From contig NZ_RQYW01000012.1 of assembly GCF_003932895.1 (NCBI RefSeq), positions 1 to 64,000 on the forward strand: a stretch of DNA of 64,000 bases. The letters run 5' to 3'. The notes beneath the pieces were generated by a model. That model was given only the letters and a program-made list of their open reading frames with translations, did no database searches and was not told where the DNA came from. This DNA comes from Leptotrichia sp. OH3620_COT-345 (GTDB taxonomy: Bacteria > Fusobacteriota > Fusobacteriia > Fusobacteriales > Leptotrichiaceae). Shown one piece after another: positions 25,405 through 33,270 of the stretch. The stretch's first letter is position 1; each line of letters begins with the position of its first letter. Made by a program: the position numbers and the translations under genes.

Positions 25405-26166
25405 TCACATAATTTCTACAGGTATTCCCATATTTGTCAGTTTTATAAAAAAAGTAAACATCCATATAAAAAATTGTCTGAATACCCCTGAATAAACAAT
25501 TAGAAAAACTACTACCATTCCATACTTTTCTATCTGATTATAAAATCTTCTCACTTTTTCTCCGGCCATCGAATATACTATTCTCCCTCCGTCAAGGGGA
25601 GTAACAGGAATTAAATTGAAAAATGCCAAAGCCAGATTTATCATATACATATATAGAAATATTGTTATTATAATATCATTTTCTCCGAAAAAAGGTATTC
25701 CGTACCTTAAAACGGTTAAAGAAACAGCTGCAATTATAAGATTTACTACAATTCCCGCTATTGCTACACAGAAAAGACCCAATCTTTCAGGTTTCAGTTT
25801 ATAAAAATTTACAGGAACAGGTTTTGCCCAACCAATTACAAAAGGAAATCCGGTTAATATAAGTAAAATTGGCAGCAGCATGCCTGCCAAATCTAAATGT
25901 TTTAAAGGATTTAATGTGATTCTTCCTTCTTCTTTTGCAGTATCGTCTCCAAATTTATACGCTATATATCCATGAGCCACTTCATGTAAAGTCATGGAAA
26001 TTACAAATATACACAAGGAAATTACTATGTCCCATGAAAATCTGAAATCCGAAATTCCTCTGAATAACATAATCGACAACAATACAAAAACTATCAAAAA
26101 CTTTAATTCAGTATTTTCAGGATTCATTATTTTAAACTTTTCATAATATTTTTTTATAATTTTCAT
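25405..26166 (-). CDS. site-2 protease (M50) family membrane metalloprotease
   Basis: A 253-residue polytopic protein with the zinc site of M50 intramembrane proteases: SMTLHEVAHGYIAYKFGDD (HEVAH near residue 61) and NLIPVTPLDGGRIVYS (~190), the third ligand being the Asp in the latter. GRITLNPLKHLDLAG is typical of the short rhomboid-like YwhC/SpoIVFB branch without PDZ domains. The substrate is unknown. AGAGGTAGGA precedes the ATG. It lies divergent to the accessory island that starts at 26.2 kb. No gene is seen between it and the pseudogenes (25168-25404, very AT-rich). Confidence 0.92.
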   Translation of the reverse strand: MKIIKKYYEKFKIMNPENTELKFLIVFVLLSIMLFRGISDFRFSWDIVISLCIFVISMTLHEVAHGYIAYKFGDDTAKEEGRITLNPLKHLDLAGMLLPILLILTGFPFVIGWAKPVPVNFYKLKPERLGLFCVAIAGIVVNLIIAAVSLTVLRYGIPFFGENDIIITIFLYMYMINLALAFFNLIPVTPLDGGRIVYSMAGEKVRRFYNQIEKYGMVVVFLIVYSGVFRQFFIWMFTFFIKLTNMGIPVEIM

Positions 26167-26268: not shown

Positions 26269-26309
26269 AAGGAGGGCAAAGCTGAATAATTTTATTTCAG
26301 TTAAATATT
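26269..26309 (+). promoter_or_regulatory. distant Shine-Dalgarno bridged by a stem-loop, GHKL ATPase start
   Basis: AAGGAGGG (GGAG at 26271-26274) is 35 nt from the ATG. AGCTGAA (26280-26286) can pair with TTCAGTT (26296-26302) in 7 bp including one G-U, with a 9-nt loop. Folding leaves 12 nt. An in-frame TGA follows the Shine-Dalgarno closely (26283-26285), so no earlier ordinary start is available. The bridge role is inference. Confidence 0.45.
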
Positions 26310-28229
26310 ATGAGTATAAATTGGAATTTCCCCGAGAGTAACTACTCTCAAAGATTCGGAATAAGTGAAGCGGGTATTGAAACTTTCAGAGGTTCCCTAT
26401 TCGGCTCACTGGCAAAAGAAATATGTCAAAATTCTCTTGATGCAAGACTGAATTTTTCGGAACCTGTCATCGTTGAATTTTCAAAATTTGAGATTAAAAT
26501 CCAAAACATTCCGGGTTACTTAATATTAAACGACGCTTTAAACAAATGCTTAAATTCAAGTTCAGATAAAAAAGCAAAAAAATTTTTTAAAAATGCCTGT
26601 AAAAAAATGGAAACCCAGAAGATAGGAATATTAAGGGCAAGTGATTTCAATACTACAGGTTTAAAAGGAGCAAAGGAATCGAATATATCCATTAATCCTT
26701 GGCAAAGTCTTATAAAATCTTCAGGTATTTCAGATAAAACTTCCACTTCAGGAGGAAGCTACGGCATAGGAAAATCAGCACCTTTTGCCTGTTCGGAAAT
26801 AAGAACTATATTTTATACTACTTTTGATACTGAAAATATTTTAGCAACTCAAGGAGTTTCAAGACTGATTTCTTTTCCGGCAAGTGATGATAAACTTACT
26901 CAAGGAATAGGATATTACGGAGAAACTAAAAAAAATACCCCTATTTTTAAAGAACTTAATCTGGATAATTCTTTCAAAAGAAAAGGTCAGACAGGAACAG
27001 ATCTCTATATAATAGGGTTTCTTGAAAGGGAAAAATGGAAGGAAGAACTCATTTCAGCCGTACTGGAAAACTTTTTGATAGCCATTTATAATAAAAATCT
27101 TATTGTAAAAGTGAATGATACCTTAATTTCAAAAGAAACACTCAAAGAAACAATAGAAAATCTTAAAATAGGTGAAAAAAAGAAAAATCTTACTATAAAC
27201 GATTACTACAAAGTATTGACAGCTACATCGGAAATTAATAGCGGAAAAAATGCCTTCTTCTTAGGAGATACTTTTAAAAATCTTGACGATTTTGAACTAA
27301 AAATTTTATATGAAGACCTCAATAGAAAAGTTTTAATTTCAAGAAGCAACGGAATGAAAATTTTTGATTTGGACAGATTTCCTTCCTCATTACAATTTTC
27401 AGCAATTTTTACATTGACAGGGGAAAAACTCAATGGTTATTTTAGAGAAATGGAAAGCCCTCAACATGACAGCTGGCAACCTGACAGACATTCAGATGAA
27501 AATGCTAAAGTTATGTTAAAGGAATTAAAGCAGTTAATAAGGAGTAAAATTGTTGAATTAGGAAAAAATACAGTTGCAGATCAGATGGATGCTGACGGTA
27601 TAGGAGATTTTCTGCCTGATGATCTCGTATTTCTTGAAAAGAAAAAAGAAGATGAGAAAATTGATAAAGTAAGCGATAAAACTAAAAAAATTGAATTACA
27701 GTCTGTGGATGCACCTCCTAAAAAAAGAAATGACAAAGTTCCTCCTAAAAGTCGAGAAGAATTTAACGATGCTTCATCAACGGGAAATTTCCCTGACGGA
27801 ACGCCTGAAACAGGAGATATTCCTTTCGGAATCAATAAAACTGAAGAAAATAATCTTGAAAAGGAATTTTCTATAATTAAAGATGAAAACGGATTTTTAA
27901 AGGTCAAAAAGATTTCCATTGTTTCAGATGCAAATATACGTCTGATTTTAATGAATAAAAAACTTAGAAAATACAAACTTGTTATTCTTCCAAAAAAAAA
28001 TATTCCTGATGCCTGTGTAAGAATCAGTCTTTCAGGAGAACAAACCAATTTAAAGGCAAAAATCAGAAATGCCTATGAAAATGATAATGTATTAAATCCT
28101 TTAAGAATTAATCAGGATAAAATTTACATGAACAATCTTGAAGAAAATCAAAAATTTTCATTATCATTTATTCTAAATTATTCTGATGATTGTTCAATGG
28201 AGGTAGAACTGTATGAATATAGAGTATAA
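26310..28229 (+). CDS. GHKL (Hsp90/MutL-fold) ATPase of a putative conflict system
   Basis: A 639-residue protein with a Bergerat ATP-binding fold. The N box is AKEICQNSLDA (Glu37, Asn41, Asp44), the G1 box SDFNTTGLKG (Asp112, Gly117), the glycine lid GGSYGIGKSAP (148-158), with TGTDLYIIGF (~229) as the MutL/Hsp90-like G3. A transducer-like region runs to ~420 with a conserved-looking MESPQHDSWQPDRHSDE (381-397). Next comes a charged, Pro-rich, probably disordered linker (445-515), then a beta-rich C-terminal domain. GHKL ATPases of this MutL/MORC type occur in prokaryotic restriction-like and defence cassettes. It overlaps the next gene by 17 nt. No nuclease motif is evident. The function of this operon is not known to me. 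Confidence 0.8.
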   Translation: MSINWNFPESNYSQRFGISEAGIETFRGSLFGSLAKEICQNSLDARLNFSEPVIVEFSKFEIKIQNIPGYLILNDALNKCLNSSSDKKAKKFFKNACKKMETQKIGILRASDFNTTGLKGAKESNISINPWQSLIKSSGISDKTSTSGGSYGIGKSAPFACSEIRTIFYTTFDTENILATQGVSRLISFPASDDKLTQGIGYYGETKKNTPIFKELNLDNSFKRKGQTGTDLYIIGFLEREKWKEELISAVLENFLIAIYNKNLIVKVNDTLISKETLKETIENLKIGEKKKNLTINDYYKVLTATSEINSGKNAFFLGDTFKNLDDFELKILYEDLNRKVLISRSNGMKIFDLDRFPSSLQFSAIFTLTGEKLNGYFREMESPQHDSWQPDRHSDENAKVMLKELKQLIRSKIVELGKNTVADQMDADGIGDFLPDDLVFLEKKKEDEKIDKVSDKTKKIELQSVDAPPKKRNDKVPPKSREEFNDASSTGNFPDGTPETGDIPFGINKTEENNLEKEFSIIKDENGFLKVKKISIVSDANIRLILMNKKLRKYKLVILPKKNIPDACVRISLSGEQTNLKAKIRNAYENDNVLNPLRINQDKIYMNNLEENQKFSLSFILNYSDDCSMEVELYEYRV

Positions 28230-29079
28230 ATTGTATCCTTACCCTGTGCTGAATTATTTTTCCGACGACTATATAAATTCAATTTTTACTTCAAATTTAA
28301 GTGTAAGTAAACAGGGAAACAGTATTATTCTGGATTTAACGGCAAATACTGATGATGAAGGATTAATGGAACTTATAGGAAAAGGATTGGCTGACTATGT
28401 CTTCCATATTGAATGTTCTTCCACGTCTTACAGAAACATTGTAAAATCCCACTCAGGGAAAGAAACGATAACAATCCCTGAATCTAAACTGGATAACAAA
28501 GTAAATATATGTTTCTTTATTGTTGCAAAAAAAGATTTGGAAAATTACTCCAACAAAAATTTTAATCAGGATTATGAAGGAATCTCTTTCAACATAGATA
28601 AAGCCAATATTTTAGCTATTGCACGACAGTTCAACATAGATATTGAAAAGGAAAAGGATAATCTTGCTCAAGTTCCGTCAATCTTTCTCATAATAAAAAA
28701 AGAATCCGATAAAAAAGACGGTATTGAGATAGATATGCTTCAGGATAAGCTGCAAATTTTCCTCAGTAAAAGAGATTATGAACGATATGCCCTCCTTTCC
28801 AAAGGCAGTTATCAGCCCCTACTTCATTCTTCAATTATTTTTCCGGCATTAATTTATGTTTTCGAAAATCTAAGAAAATCGGATTTGGAAACTTTTGAAG
28901 ATTTCAATTGGTTTAAAACCGTAAAAAAAGTTCTATACAACATAGATATTGATTTAAATCAGGAAACTTTGGAAAGAGAATATTCATATGATTTGGCTCA
29001 AAAAATAATAAACTACCCCGTAAGCAGAAGTCTTGAAGCTATGCTTACATTTGAAACCGAAGAGGAGGAAATTGAATGA
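28213..29079 (+). CDS. unknown beta-rich protein, partner of GHKL ATPase
   Basis: A 288-residue soluble protein. The N-terminal ~110 residues (YPYPVLNYFSDDYINS, GLADYVFHIECSSTSYR, VNICFFIVAKKDLENY) look like a beta-sandwich. The middle is mixed (ILAIARQFNIDIEKEKDN, then FLIIKK) and the C-terminus is helical (LLHSSIIFPALIYVFENL). I know no named domain for it. It starts inside the end of the ATPase gene with GGAGGT before its ATG, and its stop overlaps the next start, so stoichiometric co-translation is expected. No catalytic motif is apparent; it may be an adaptor or sensor, which is inference. Confidence 0.75.
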   Translation: MNIEYKLYPYPVLNYFSDDYINSIFTSNLSVSKQGNSIILDLTANTDDEGLMELIGKGLADYVFHIECSSTSYRNIVKSHSGKETITIPESKLDNKVNICFFIVAKKDLENYSNKNFNQDYEGISFNIDKANILAIARQFNIDIEKEKDNLAQVPSIFLIIKKESDKKDGIEIDMLQDKLQIFLSKRDYERYALLSKGSYQPLLHSSIIFPALIYVFENLRKSDLETFEDFNWFKTVKKVLYNIDIDLNQETLEREYSYDLAQKIINYPVSRSLEAMLTFETEEEEIE

Positions 29080-29825
29080 AACTCGAATTTTTAAGAGAAA
29101 TACCTCTTGAAACATTAAGAAAAAATGTAGAAAATAATTTTTCAAATTATTCCATGCCCACAAATGAATGGATTTTCAGCTTTTTTGAAAATCAAGCTTC
29201 CCCTTTCCTTGAATTTAAAAAAGAGGTTCCTGATTTTGAGTTGAATATGTCTTATGAAAAACCTGAAAAAAGTGACATTGAAAATATTAAAATTTTGTAT
29301 AATGCCTTAAAGGATTTATCCGTAGTTGAAGCTACAAATGAAAATTTATGGTCAGGAATGGCACACAGCAAATTTTGGAACTACATGCAATATCGTTTAT
29401 CTCTTGATAAAAATAAATCTTATGTAAATAATATAAAAAATTCATTTTTCTTTTCACATGGTAAAAAACGTTCCCTTATAGAACATGCTTTATCAAGATT
29501 ATGGTGGGCAGGAAAAATGACTTATGATGAAAACAGGACAGATCCTTTTGAACTGCTTCAGGTATTTAATGTTGATTTCAGAACTAAACTGCTTTATCTG
29601 TTTTCAAGTAATTTCAGTAACAACCTTAAAATTACAAGGGCATTTTTATCTGCAATACTTGACTTTGAAAAAAACGGAGTTAAGATAAAAAGAGAAATTT
29701 TCAATGAAACTGTAATGTACCTCAATATTTTAGGAGGAACATATATTCTTGACTATTTTGAAGAAAATGAACTGAAAGATAAAATTACGAAAAAAATTGA
29801 CAGTTTACTCCTTACTGTTGATTAA
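29076..29825 (+). CDS. DUF6339 family protein
   Basis: A 249-residue, mainly helical protein that I match to DUF6339 from the pattern NLWSGMAHSKFWNYMQYRL (~residues 88-106), NSFFFSHGKKRSLIEHALSR (~121-140) and LWWAGKMTYDE. Function unknown. Conserved aromatic/His/Arg positions hint at a nucleic-acid or ligand site, but this is conjecture. The start overlaps the previous stop (ATGA), with GAGGAGG before it. It closes the three-gene ATPase operon. Confidence 0.75.
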   Translation: MKLEFLREIPLETLRKNVENNFSNYSMPTNEWIFSFFENQASPFLEFKKEVPDFELNMSYEKPEKSDIENIKILYNALKDLSVVEATNENLWSGMAHSKFWNYMQYRLSLDKNKSYVNNIKNSFFFSHGKKRSLIEHALSRLWWAGKMTYDENRTDPFELLQVFNVDFRTKLLYLFSSNFSNNLKITRAFLSAILDFEKNGVKIKREIFNETVMYLNILGGTYILDYFEENELKDKITKKIDSLLLTVD

Positions 29826-29885: not shown

Positions 29886-30809
29886 ATGAAAAATTCGACA
29901 ATATATTTTAACAAATTTAAAAAAGGAGAAATACCTGAAGAAAAAAGTGCCCTTGAAATTTTAGAACAAATTTTATCAGATAGAAATAAAAGAAATATAA
30001 AAAAGCTTTCATCTGAGAACGGAAATACTACTAAAATACCTATCAAAAAGTCAAAAGAGAAGAATAAAGAAAACACATTTACTTCATATATAACAATAAG
30101 AACTAAAGAGTCTAAAGCTCCCCGTCCGTTTATCCCCAGTCCAAGTGTCGGAGGAGCAATAGCTCTTTTTAATAAACAGCAGGAAAATATTTTAAAAATG
30201 ATAGAAAATAATGCCCCTAAAAAAGATATTTTAAAAGAATTGGCTATGTTAAGTCATATAGGCGGTTTTTCATCTGAAAGTCCCTATGAAGGTCTGTATG
30301 TGGCTACTAATAAAGAATTAAGAAAAAAATTTATTGATGAAAGAAATAATCTGTATCTTGATAAATTTGATCCTGAAGGTTGGAAAAATATAGAAAATCA
30401 TGAAGTATATAAAAAAGCTGTTAATGATATTGTTAAAAAAGCAGAAGAAAACTTCTGGAAATATGGAAGAGAAGAAAGAGTGAAAAAAGGAATAGAATTT
30501 GCAAAAGAATATAATGTCGATAAAATTAAAAAATTGGAATATGCTTTGGGAAGATCAGTTATAATAGGAAAAATAAAAACTTCCGTAACTGAAAATAAAA
30601 ACGGAAAATATAATCTCCGCATTTATGTAAGATATAATCTGTCTGATAAATTTCAAAGAATAATAGGAGATAAAATTCCTATTGAATGGGGAAAACCTTA
30701 TGATATGGTAGGTCCGTCACAGGAAAAAACTATATACGAAAAAACTTTTAATAATAAACGGGACGCCCTTTCTCATCTCAATAGAATGAGAAAAGAATTA
30801 GTAAGATAA
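29886..30809 (+). CDS. unknown protein, possible orphan polymorphic-toxin module
   Basis: A 307-residue protein with no recognised family. The N-terminal ~75 residues are Lys/Asn-rich and low-complexity; then PRPFIPSPSVGGAIALFNKQ (~82), a helical middle (DIVKKAEENFWKYGREERV), and a compact C-terminal region with ALGRSVIIGKIKT, RIYVRYNLSDKFQ and IPIEWGKPYDMVGPSQEKT. The last reads like a small enzymatic or toxin domain but has no motif I can name. No Shine-Dalgarno precedes the ATG, and a TATAAT lies 2 nt before it, so the 5' end may be truncated. It is followed 22 nt later by a two-TM protein, a layout seen in toxin-immunity pairs. That function is inferred and weak. Confidence 0.55.
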   Translation: MKNSTIYFNKFKKGEIPEEKSALEILEQILSDRNKRNIKKLSSENGNTTKIPIKKSKEKNKENTFTSYITIRTKESKAPRPFIPSPSVGGAIALFNKQQENILKMIENNAPKKDILKELAMLSHIGGFSSESPYEGLYVATNKELRKKFIDERNNLYLDKFDPEGWKNIENHEVYKKAVNDIVKKAEENFWKYGREERVKKGIEFAKEYNVDKIKKLEYALGRSVIIGKIKTSVTENKNGKYNLRIYVRYNLSDKFQRIIGDKIPIEWGKPYDMVGPSQEKTIYEKTFNNKRDALSHLNRMRKELVR

Positions 30810-30831: not shown

Positions 30832-31509
30832 ATGAAAATATTTATACAGTTTATTTTTATTCCTTTAGCACTAATTATAGGTATATCAACTATATTTTAT
30901 ATACCTTTTAAAGCTCGAAAAGAACCTATAGACTTAATATTACCAAAAGGATACGAATTATTGCTATATAAAAACGGTATTATAAAATTAAAAATTTATG
31001 ATTCATATTTAAGCTCAGAAGAATTTTTAAATTCACAGAATTATAAAACCTTTCCTGCTGACAGAAATTCCGACATAAGATATAAAAGAAGCATATTTAC
31101 AGTAAGTAAGCTGGCAAGATATATAAAAAAATATGAAGAAAACGGGGAAACTTTTTATTATGATTATGTAGGATATATTACTGATGAAAAAGTTGAAATA
31201 AAAAACAGAGGGGGAAACATCCGAATGGAAAAAAGTAATAAAAACTTGGGATATTTTTACTCTGATGACAAAAATGACATAATAAAATTTGGAGTATCGG
31301 AAAAGGAACTTAAGGAAAAATACGGAAAAGATGTTATTAAAAAAATGAAAAACTCTAAAAAGATAATGAAAAAATATGGAGATGACGGAGTAGGAAACAG
31401 GGACATTCAAAATGGTGTTTACATCAGAAGTATTTGGATTTGGATAATTATAAACTGTTTATATTATTTAACTTCATATTTTAAAAAGAAAAAACTATCA
31501 GAAAAATAA
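30832..31509 (+). CDS. two-TM membrane protein, possible immunity partner
   Basis: A 225-residue protein of unknown family. There is one TM segment at the N-terminus (FIQFIFIPLALIIGISTIFY, residues ~4-23), a ~165-residue outer domain rich in Lys and Tyr (FYYDYVGYITDEK near 105), and a C-terminal TM (SIWIWIIINCLYYLTSYF) with a KKKK tail. GGAGG lies 7 nt before the ATG. It follows the 307-residue unknown and ends at a good terminator. The layout and the YY-x-GY-type motif echo the broken genes at 23.6-24.8 kb, suggesting a small family in this neighbourhood. An immunity role is a guess from arrangement. Confidence 0.6.
   Translation: MKIFIQFIFIPLALIIGISTIFYIPFKARKEPIDLILPKGYELLLYKNGIIKLKIYDSYLSSEEFLNSQNYKTFPADRNSDIRYKRSIFTVSKLARYIKKYEENGETFYYDYVGYITDEKVEIKNRGGNIRMEKSNKNLGYFYSDDKNDIIKFGVSEKELKEKYGKDVIKKMKNSKKIMKKYGDDGVGNRDIQNGVYIRSIWIWIIINCLYYLTSYFKKKKLSEK

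Positions 31510-31695: not shown

Positions 31696-33270
<1,575 letters not shown>

Follow-up and report, generated by a model that had tools for sequence, protein, structure and literature searches.

The window analysed here is a 64,000-nucleotide stretch of Leptotrichia sp. OH3620_COT-345 (contig NZ_RQYW01000012.1, positions 1 to 64,000 of the forward strand), and it carries a run of three overlapping genes, A, B and C, whose products match the PADLOC models PDC-M33A, PDC-M33B and PDC-M33C near full length and in the same order. An earlier reading made from the letters alone (the sequence-only reading) had described three overlapping genes on the strand opposite to their neighbours, and the coordinates, the lengths of 639, 288 and 249 residues and the overlaps of 17 and 4 nucleotides were all verified. 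The B/C overlap occupies positions 29076-29079, and the A/B overlap makes translational coupling of these two genes probable. The features of the locus are as follows.

26310..28229, + strand: gene A, PDC-M33A / paraMORC2-like GHKL + S5 ATPase, 639 residues (PADLOC E 2e-216; ATP-site motifs in 67/67 relatives)
28213..28229, + strand: A/B overlap, 17 nucleotides (17 nucleotides in 47/89 loci, 11 nucleotides in 23 more)
28213..29079, + strand: gene B, PDC-M33B, 288 residues (PADLOC E 9.5e-104; AlphaFold2; Foldseek)
29076..29825, + strand: gene C, PDC-M33C / DUF6339, 249 residues, predicted mostly helical (PADLOC E 6.5e-94; PF19866 E 4e-55; AlphaFold2)

The operon had been proposed to be an undescribed system, and this description does not hold: the system is PDC-M33, a phage defence candidate (PDC) of PADLOC, and its ATPase agrees with the paraMORC2 family defined by Iyer et al. 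2008 (PMC2292703). The PDCs have their origin in a guilt-by-embedding study (Payne et al., bioRxiv 2024.01.29.577857, as cited in PMC12988326) and are described as mostly without validation (PMC12988326). A search of the literature returned no paper naming PDC-M33 or DUF6339 and no record of an experimental test. New findings are that the trio holds together strictly, that an exchangeable C5-cytosine methyltransferase recurs beside it, that a small protein is encoded upstream, and that the window belongs to a lineage free of the methyltransferase.

An alignment of A was used to search genome contigs for relatives, and the best 80 of the 223 found were retained; together with five viral contigs and nine records of plasmids or phages, the comparison covers about 95 relatives. 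The five viral relatives were found with the alignment of A, and none was found with the window protein alone. The trio is complete, with B and C following A in order, in 87 of the 89 loci with enough sequence. Pairwise protein distances correlate closely between A and B (0.925), A and C (0.908), and B and C (0.930). DUF6339 occurs in seven of 98 Fusobacteriota genomes, which are exactly those with a strong match to A (in one of them, G001, the genes of the trio lie on two different contigs), and two further Fusobacteriota genomes possess a distant A only, bringing the presence of A to 9/98. The trio is a strict unit whose members co-evolve.

Protein A was said to possess an intact N box, G1 motif and glycine lid, and these motifs are conserved throughout the aligned relatives, together with a fourth motif further downstream.

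26418..26441, + strand: N box of A, Glu37-Asp44, E-x2-QN-x2-D (E37, N41 and D44 in 67/67 relatives)
26643..26663, + strand: G1 motif of A, Asp112-Leu118, DxNTxGL (D112 and G117 in 67/67; L118 in 66/67)
26751..26774, + strand: glycine lid of A, Gly148-Lys155, GGSxGIGK (G149, G152, G154 and K155 in 67/67)
27453..27467, + strand: ExxxH motif of A, Glu382-His386, in a putative S5 domain (ExxxH in 67/67 relatives)

Nine ATP-site residues (E37, N41, D44, D112, G117, G149, G152, G154 and K155) are thus identical in all 67 aligned relatives, an invariance far above chance, and no loss of Bergerat residues was seen across orthologues. The invariance of the ATP site makes it very probable, judging from sequence conservation, that A is an active ATPase. 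No GHKL model reaches A in a Pfam scan and the PADLOC M33A model is without a functional description, and because no Pfam model reaches it the GHKL assignment rests on the conserved motifs and the paraMORC2 signature. GHKL motifs combined with E382-x3-H386 in a putative S5 fold make A a strong fit to paraMORC2, a membership assigned by signature and not as proven identity. In the passages of Iyer et al. (PMC2292703) concerned with this family, paraMORC2 comprises GHKL+S5 ATPases that are common in Gram-positive bacteria, carry a strongly conserved ExxxH in S5 and are associated with methylases, Vsr and restriction enzymes, so that their restriction-modification (R-M) neighbourhoods were already placed in 2008. 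Geobacillus thermodenitrificans and an Oceanobacillus are among the species of the paraMORC2 alignment in that paper, and the trio is present in relatives from these taxa (L074, L077 and L078). No match of A to Pfam nuclease families was found. The MutL endonuclease motif DQHAx2Ex4E is present in 0/67 relatives, which excludes that nuclease function only, as the motif is not universal in MutL, and the motif of MORC proper, GhXhhpXXRhl in S5, is likewise present in 0/67. Two relatives deviate in the A gene itself: A from genome G009 (L012:9416-11422) possesses an insert of ~26 residues between repeated TQG(M/I)GY motifs, as would result from duplication of a short segment, and A from Epulopiscium (L038:10001-11938) is divided into two open reading frames (ORFs), probably as a broken gene or an assembly error.

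B had been called beta-rich, which applies to its N-terminal half, the remainder being helical in the AlphaFold2 model (mean predicted local distance difference test score (pLDDT) 88.7, predicted template modelling score (pTM) 0.54). The model consists of an N-terminal sandwich resembling immunoglobulin (Ig) and fibronectin type III (FN3) folds at about residues 20-145, followed by C-terminal helices at residues 186-287, and a Foldseek search of the PDB gave weak FN3/Ig-like matches for the sandwich (best E 1e-3). C is predicted with a mean pLDDT of 93.8 to be almost wholly helical; Foldseek found no relative of it in the PDB (best E 1.1), and no viral match was found. C is the only one of the three proteins recognised by Pfam, and its earlier description as DUF6339-like can be stated as a full match to DUF6339 (PF19866, E 4e-55, 186.7 bits against a gathering cut-off of 23.2). 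Profiles of B and C gave nothing significant against PDB sequences. B and C were examined for a PD-(D/E)XK or HEPN effector and none was found, as no supported nuclease match occurs among the Foldseek PDB hits, and the statement that the operon lacks a recognised nuclease is upheld to this extent. The conserved polar residues of C are E89, R90, R107, R132, R141, D151, N183, N217 and D226, and no histidine of C is conserved above 80%. In two loci (L041:3661-5223 and L087:12805-14349), C is extended by a C-terminal region of ~250 residues without a Pfam match.

The gene neighbourhood was defined by clustering five genes on each side of the trio, for which 58 loci have full flanks. A C5-cytosine methyltransferase lies within five genes in 32/58 of these loci and is the commonest neighbour; it falls into at least six sequence clusters, Pfam confirms the identity of the individual members checked, and PADLOC matches it only as a generic MTase. 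The genomes of the relatives possess 0 to 3 C5 methyltransferase genes each, and the rate of chance neighbours is therefore estimated at about one per cent. The distances of A and the methyltransferase correlate at only 0.588, and thus the partner is kept in kind and exchanged in detail. On a tree of A (98 rows, built by a quick method and with several weakly supported inner branches), the methyltransferase is present at 19/19 full-flank loci of one 36-row clade and at 0/12 of the window's clade of 30 rows, and a Bacilli clade is mixed. The methyltransferase label changes 8 times on this tree compared with 18.4 times when shuffled (0/500 shuffles as low), a difference inflated by near-copies. 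The sequence-only reading had the system as one without methylase, which is correct for the window and its clade and incorrect for the family. We read the split to mean that one lineage is functionally coupled to the methyltransferase and the other independent of it. Neighbours in the window's clade are housekeeping, recombinase and some helicase or GmrSD genes, with no methylase family enriched in the counts listed. Genus g14 contains both states: G035 has a methyltransferase-linked copy and G049 a solitary copy of the other clade. Genomes G002 (one contig) and G049, both with trios of the window's clade, contain no C5 methyltransferase match genome-wide. A required C5 methyltransferase acting in trans was considered and rejected, given these two genomes and the location of the copy in the window's genome on a mobile-looking element. 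This element (C6:52000-70000, L112) carries integrase, relaxase-like and replication genes, the C5 methyltransferase and a metallo-beta-lactamase-fold-like protein; the methyltransferase lies beside a restriction-enzyme-like ORF of 270 residues, and the whole has the appearance of an integrative element that brings its own R-M system.

In about 40 loci, the gene immediately upstream of A encodes an unnamed protein of ~76 residues, for which PADLOC has no model. This protein is associated with the methyltransferase (Fisher p 4e-5, uncorrected for relatedness and calculated before seven more copies were counted). The small protein also immediately precedes two further ATPases, apparently of GHKL type, on alphaproteobacterial plasmids (L121:5995-6222, L122:5983-6213 and L123:6016-6213), one of 800 residues and one of 621 residues with a sub-threshold HATPase_c_3 match, suggesting that it is a general partner of GHKL-type ATPases. 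In L122:6224-11313 and L123:6226-11288 the cassette consists of the small protein, the GHKL-like protein, an AAA_21/AAA_15 ATPase and a UvrD-like helicase, an arrangement reminiscent of Gabija plus a GHKL protein, and a caspase-family gene adjoins the L123 cassette. In the window, the place occupied by the small gene in many relatives contains a Shine-Dalgarno-like AGGAGG (26270-26275), which lies 34 nucleotides upstream of the ATG of A and is too distant to serve A directly. Directly after C, 15 loci encode a protein of ~950 residues (about 800-1190; one copy is ended by a contig end; for example L083:13435-16359), and the two copies scanned contain RNA polymerase alpha-CTD-like and/or sigma-70 region 4-like domains; it is possibly a sequence-recognition subunit.

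The closest named relative of the window's trio is in a Leptotrichiaceae metagenome-assembled genome (MAG), with an A that is 93% identical. Within the window's genus, the trio adjoins an M50 peptidase gene in 3/3 genomes, with glycerol kinase as its opposite neighbour in those whose contig extends that far, whereas the G009 copy is placed between Tex/IleS and EamA/RecG genes (names read from the sequences) and the G028 copy at yet another site. The three sites examined differ, and near-identical trios occur in MAGs assigned to different phyla; the trio is mobile among genera and not bound to one housekeeping context. The following genes surround it in the window.

25405-26166, opposite strand to the trio: M50 peptidase gene
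29886-30809, + strand: ORF of 307 residues directly after the trio
30832-31509, + strand: ORF of 225 residues, second after the trio
31696-33243, opposite strand to the trio: glycerol kinase gene (glpK)

An extension of the operon to the 307- and 225-residue ORFs between C and glpK, on which the sequence-only reading is silent, was rejected, and both are left out of the system because none of the relatives has them near the trio. The 225-residue ORF has a paralogue in the window's genome (contig C6:67677-68276, 33% identical); no paralogue of the 307-residue ORF was found there.

The idea of a GHKL-based conflict or defence system is supported by the cohesion of the three genes, their sporadic occurrence, their varying sites, their frequent R-M neighbours and their presence on plasmids next to restriction, Shedu and AbiG genes. 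The explanation that we consider the most probable, with moderate confidence, is that the trio encodes a mobile paraMORC2 ATPase complex that functions as an ATP-gated DNA clamp in antiviral defence, here in a lineage free of the methyltransferase. A, B and C would most likely form one complex, in which B and C are dedicated partners of A. By analogy with the biochemistry of MutL- and MORC-type GHKL ATPases, binding of ATP would cause A to dimerise at its N-terminal heads and close around DNA, and B, with its predicted Ig-like sandwich and helices, and the helical C may together act as the platform from which the target is recognised and the effect delivered. Gene context points to foreign DNA as the target, most likely that of an invading phage or plasmid. 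The effect may be that replication or expression is blocked, or that a host nuclease or a neighbouring one cleaves the DNA, since no known nuclease domain is present in A, B or C. The C5 methyltransferase alongside most relatives, exchangeable in type, would probably mark self DNA, and the window's lineage, which works without one, must then separate self from non-self by other means. Several observations weigh against this explanation. PDC-M33 is a catalogued candidate for which a defence role is deduced from association, the trio shows no recognisable effector activity, and neither the window protein A nor its profile gave anything significant against PDB sequences. The window's trio stands alone between housekeeping genes, outside any defence island, and the sample consists mostly of the 80 closest of 223 relatives and is therefore biased towards the window's own kind.

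A bolder proposal, possible but doubtful, is that the trio constitutes the restricting half of an unrecognised kind of R-M system, a nuclease-free clamp of GHKL, Ig-like and helical proteins that silences or traps DNA lacking the exchangeable C5 methyltransferase mark, with the window's lineage discriminating without C5 methylation. In ten loci, the cassette converges on a methyltransferase of 531-555 residues. The genes past this methyltransferase, among them those of mobile elements, are not shared; what these loci broadly have in common is limited to the small protein, the trio and the methyltransferase, with no nuclease gene among them, although single loci may contain an unrecognised restriction enzyme. 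Under this proposal, the minimal R-M cassette would, just as tentatively, consist of the small protein, A, B and C together with the C5 methyltransferase, as in these ten loci.

It is unlikely that the trio is instead an ATP-dependent accessory, either a motor or a site-bridging subunit, of a conventional restriction enzyme encoded by a neighbouring R-M system or in trans. The helicase-like H subunit of the CglI and NgoAVII systems offers a comparison for such a role. Some other methyltransferase loci do contain a restriction enzyme, either a FokI-type nuclease or a PLD nuclease of NgoFVII type that is fused to the methyltransferase, and MutH/Sau3AI and type II enzymes accompany the trio on plasmids. 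DNA looping was also proposed for paraMORCs in R-M systems in the relevant passages of Iyer et al. (PMC2292703). However, the ten loci described above have no common nuclease gene, and the window's clade lacks a C5 methyltransferase neighbour at 12/12 full-flank loci.

Abortive infection ranks next and is likewise unlikely: A would sense infection and free a toxic activity of C (or B), and the host cell would die. The predicted fold of C is compact, confident and without a known relative, and its conserved polar residues could form an unrecognised active site, but this conservation could equally be structural or reflect an interface, and toxin families gave no match for B or C. A role in DNA repair, in which the trio would deal with the 5mC to T mismatches that C5 methylation gives rise to, much as MutL does together with Vsr, is very unlikely. 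The nearby C5 methyltransferases of several families, sometimes with Vsr, the MutL-like ATPase and the possible mismatch repair recruitment mentioned by Iyer et al. (PMC2292703) would be consistent with it, yet BLAST detects Vsr relatives in six loci only, the MutL endonuclease motif is absent from all 67 relatives, and G002 and G049 retain the trio with no C5 methyltransferase match. Least probable of all is a cellular housekeeping operon with no conflict role, to which the constant M50 peptidase neighbour in the window's genus and the position of the G009 copy between Tex and EamA/RecG could point, against occurrence in 9/98 Fusobacteriota genomes, sites that differ by genus, plasmid copies and near-identity in MAGs of different phyla.

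The MORC and paraMORC ATPases are thought to connect bacterial restriction systems with eukaryotic chromatin silencing, and few of their prokaryotic members have been studied. PDC-M33, with three genes and no recognised nuclease, may be among the simplest testable cases, and its lineages with and without the C5 methyltransferase constitute a natural experiment, the comparison of which would show directly whether such ATPases read DNA methylation or some other feature. Among known systems, MZA is composed of MutL, Z1, a DUF protein and AIPR, and shares with the window's trio a MutL/MORC-type GHKL ATPase in a multi-gene cassette. The relation to MZA drawn in the sequence-only reading was nevertheless rejected: the window locus has no Z1 or AIPR, with no Pfam match to either in the trio and adjacent genes and no PADLOC match in the trio and downstream ORFs, and an AIPR neighbour occurs at one distant relative only. 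This is a divergent trio on an Enterococcus faecalis plasmid (L023:7686-12449), which directly follows an AIPR gene and is the sole such adjacency noticed.

PDC-M33 is like the window's trio in all three proteins and in gene order, and its PADLOC models cover A, B and C only, without the ~76-residue protein or the methyltransferase. The paraMORC2 family, as treated in PMC2292703, is alike in its GHKL motifs, ExxxH, Gram-positive distribution and methylase neighbourhoods, and the passages of that paper on paraMORC2 make no mention of partners B and C or of a division into methyltransferase-linked and methyltransferase-free lineages. VcSduA, a paraMORC3-type Shedu protein with an N-terminal GHKL ATPase, is proven to be anti-phage; ATPase mutations, among them the ATPase-dead E27A, and nuclease mutations each abolish its protection (PMC12137116). 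It differs from the window's system in possessing a C-terminal PD-(D/E)XK nuclease (DUF4263), whereas the window's system consists of three genes with the nuclease missing or unrecognised, and it shares with A the GHKL ATPase, providing a precedent for a GHKL domain in phage defence.

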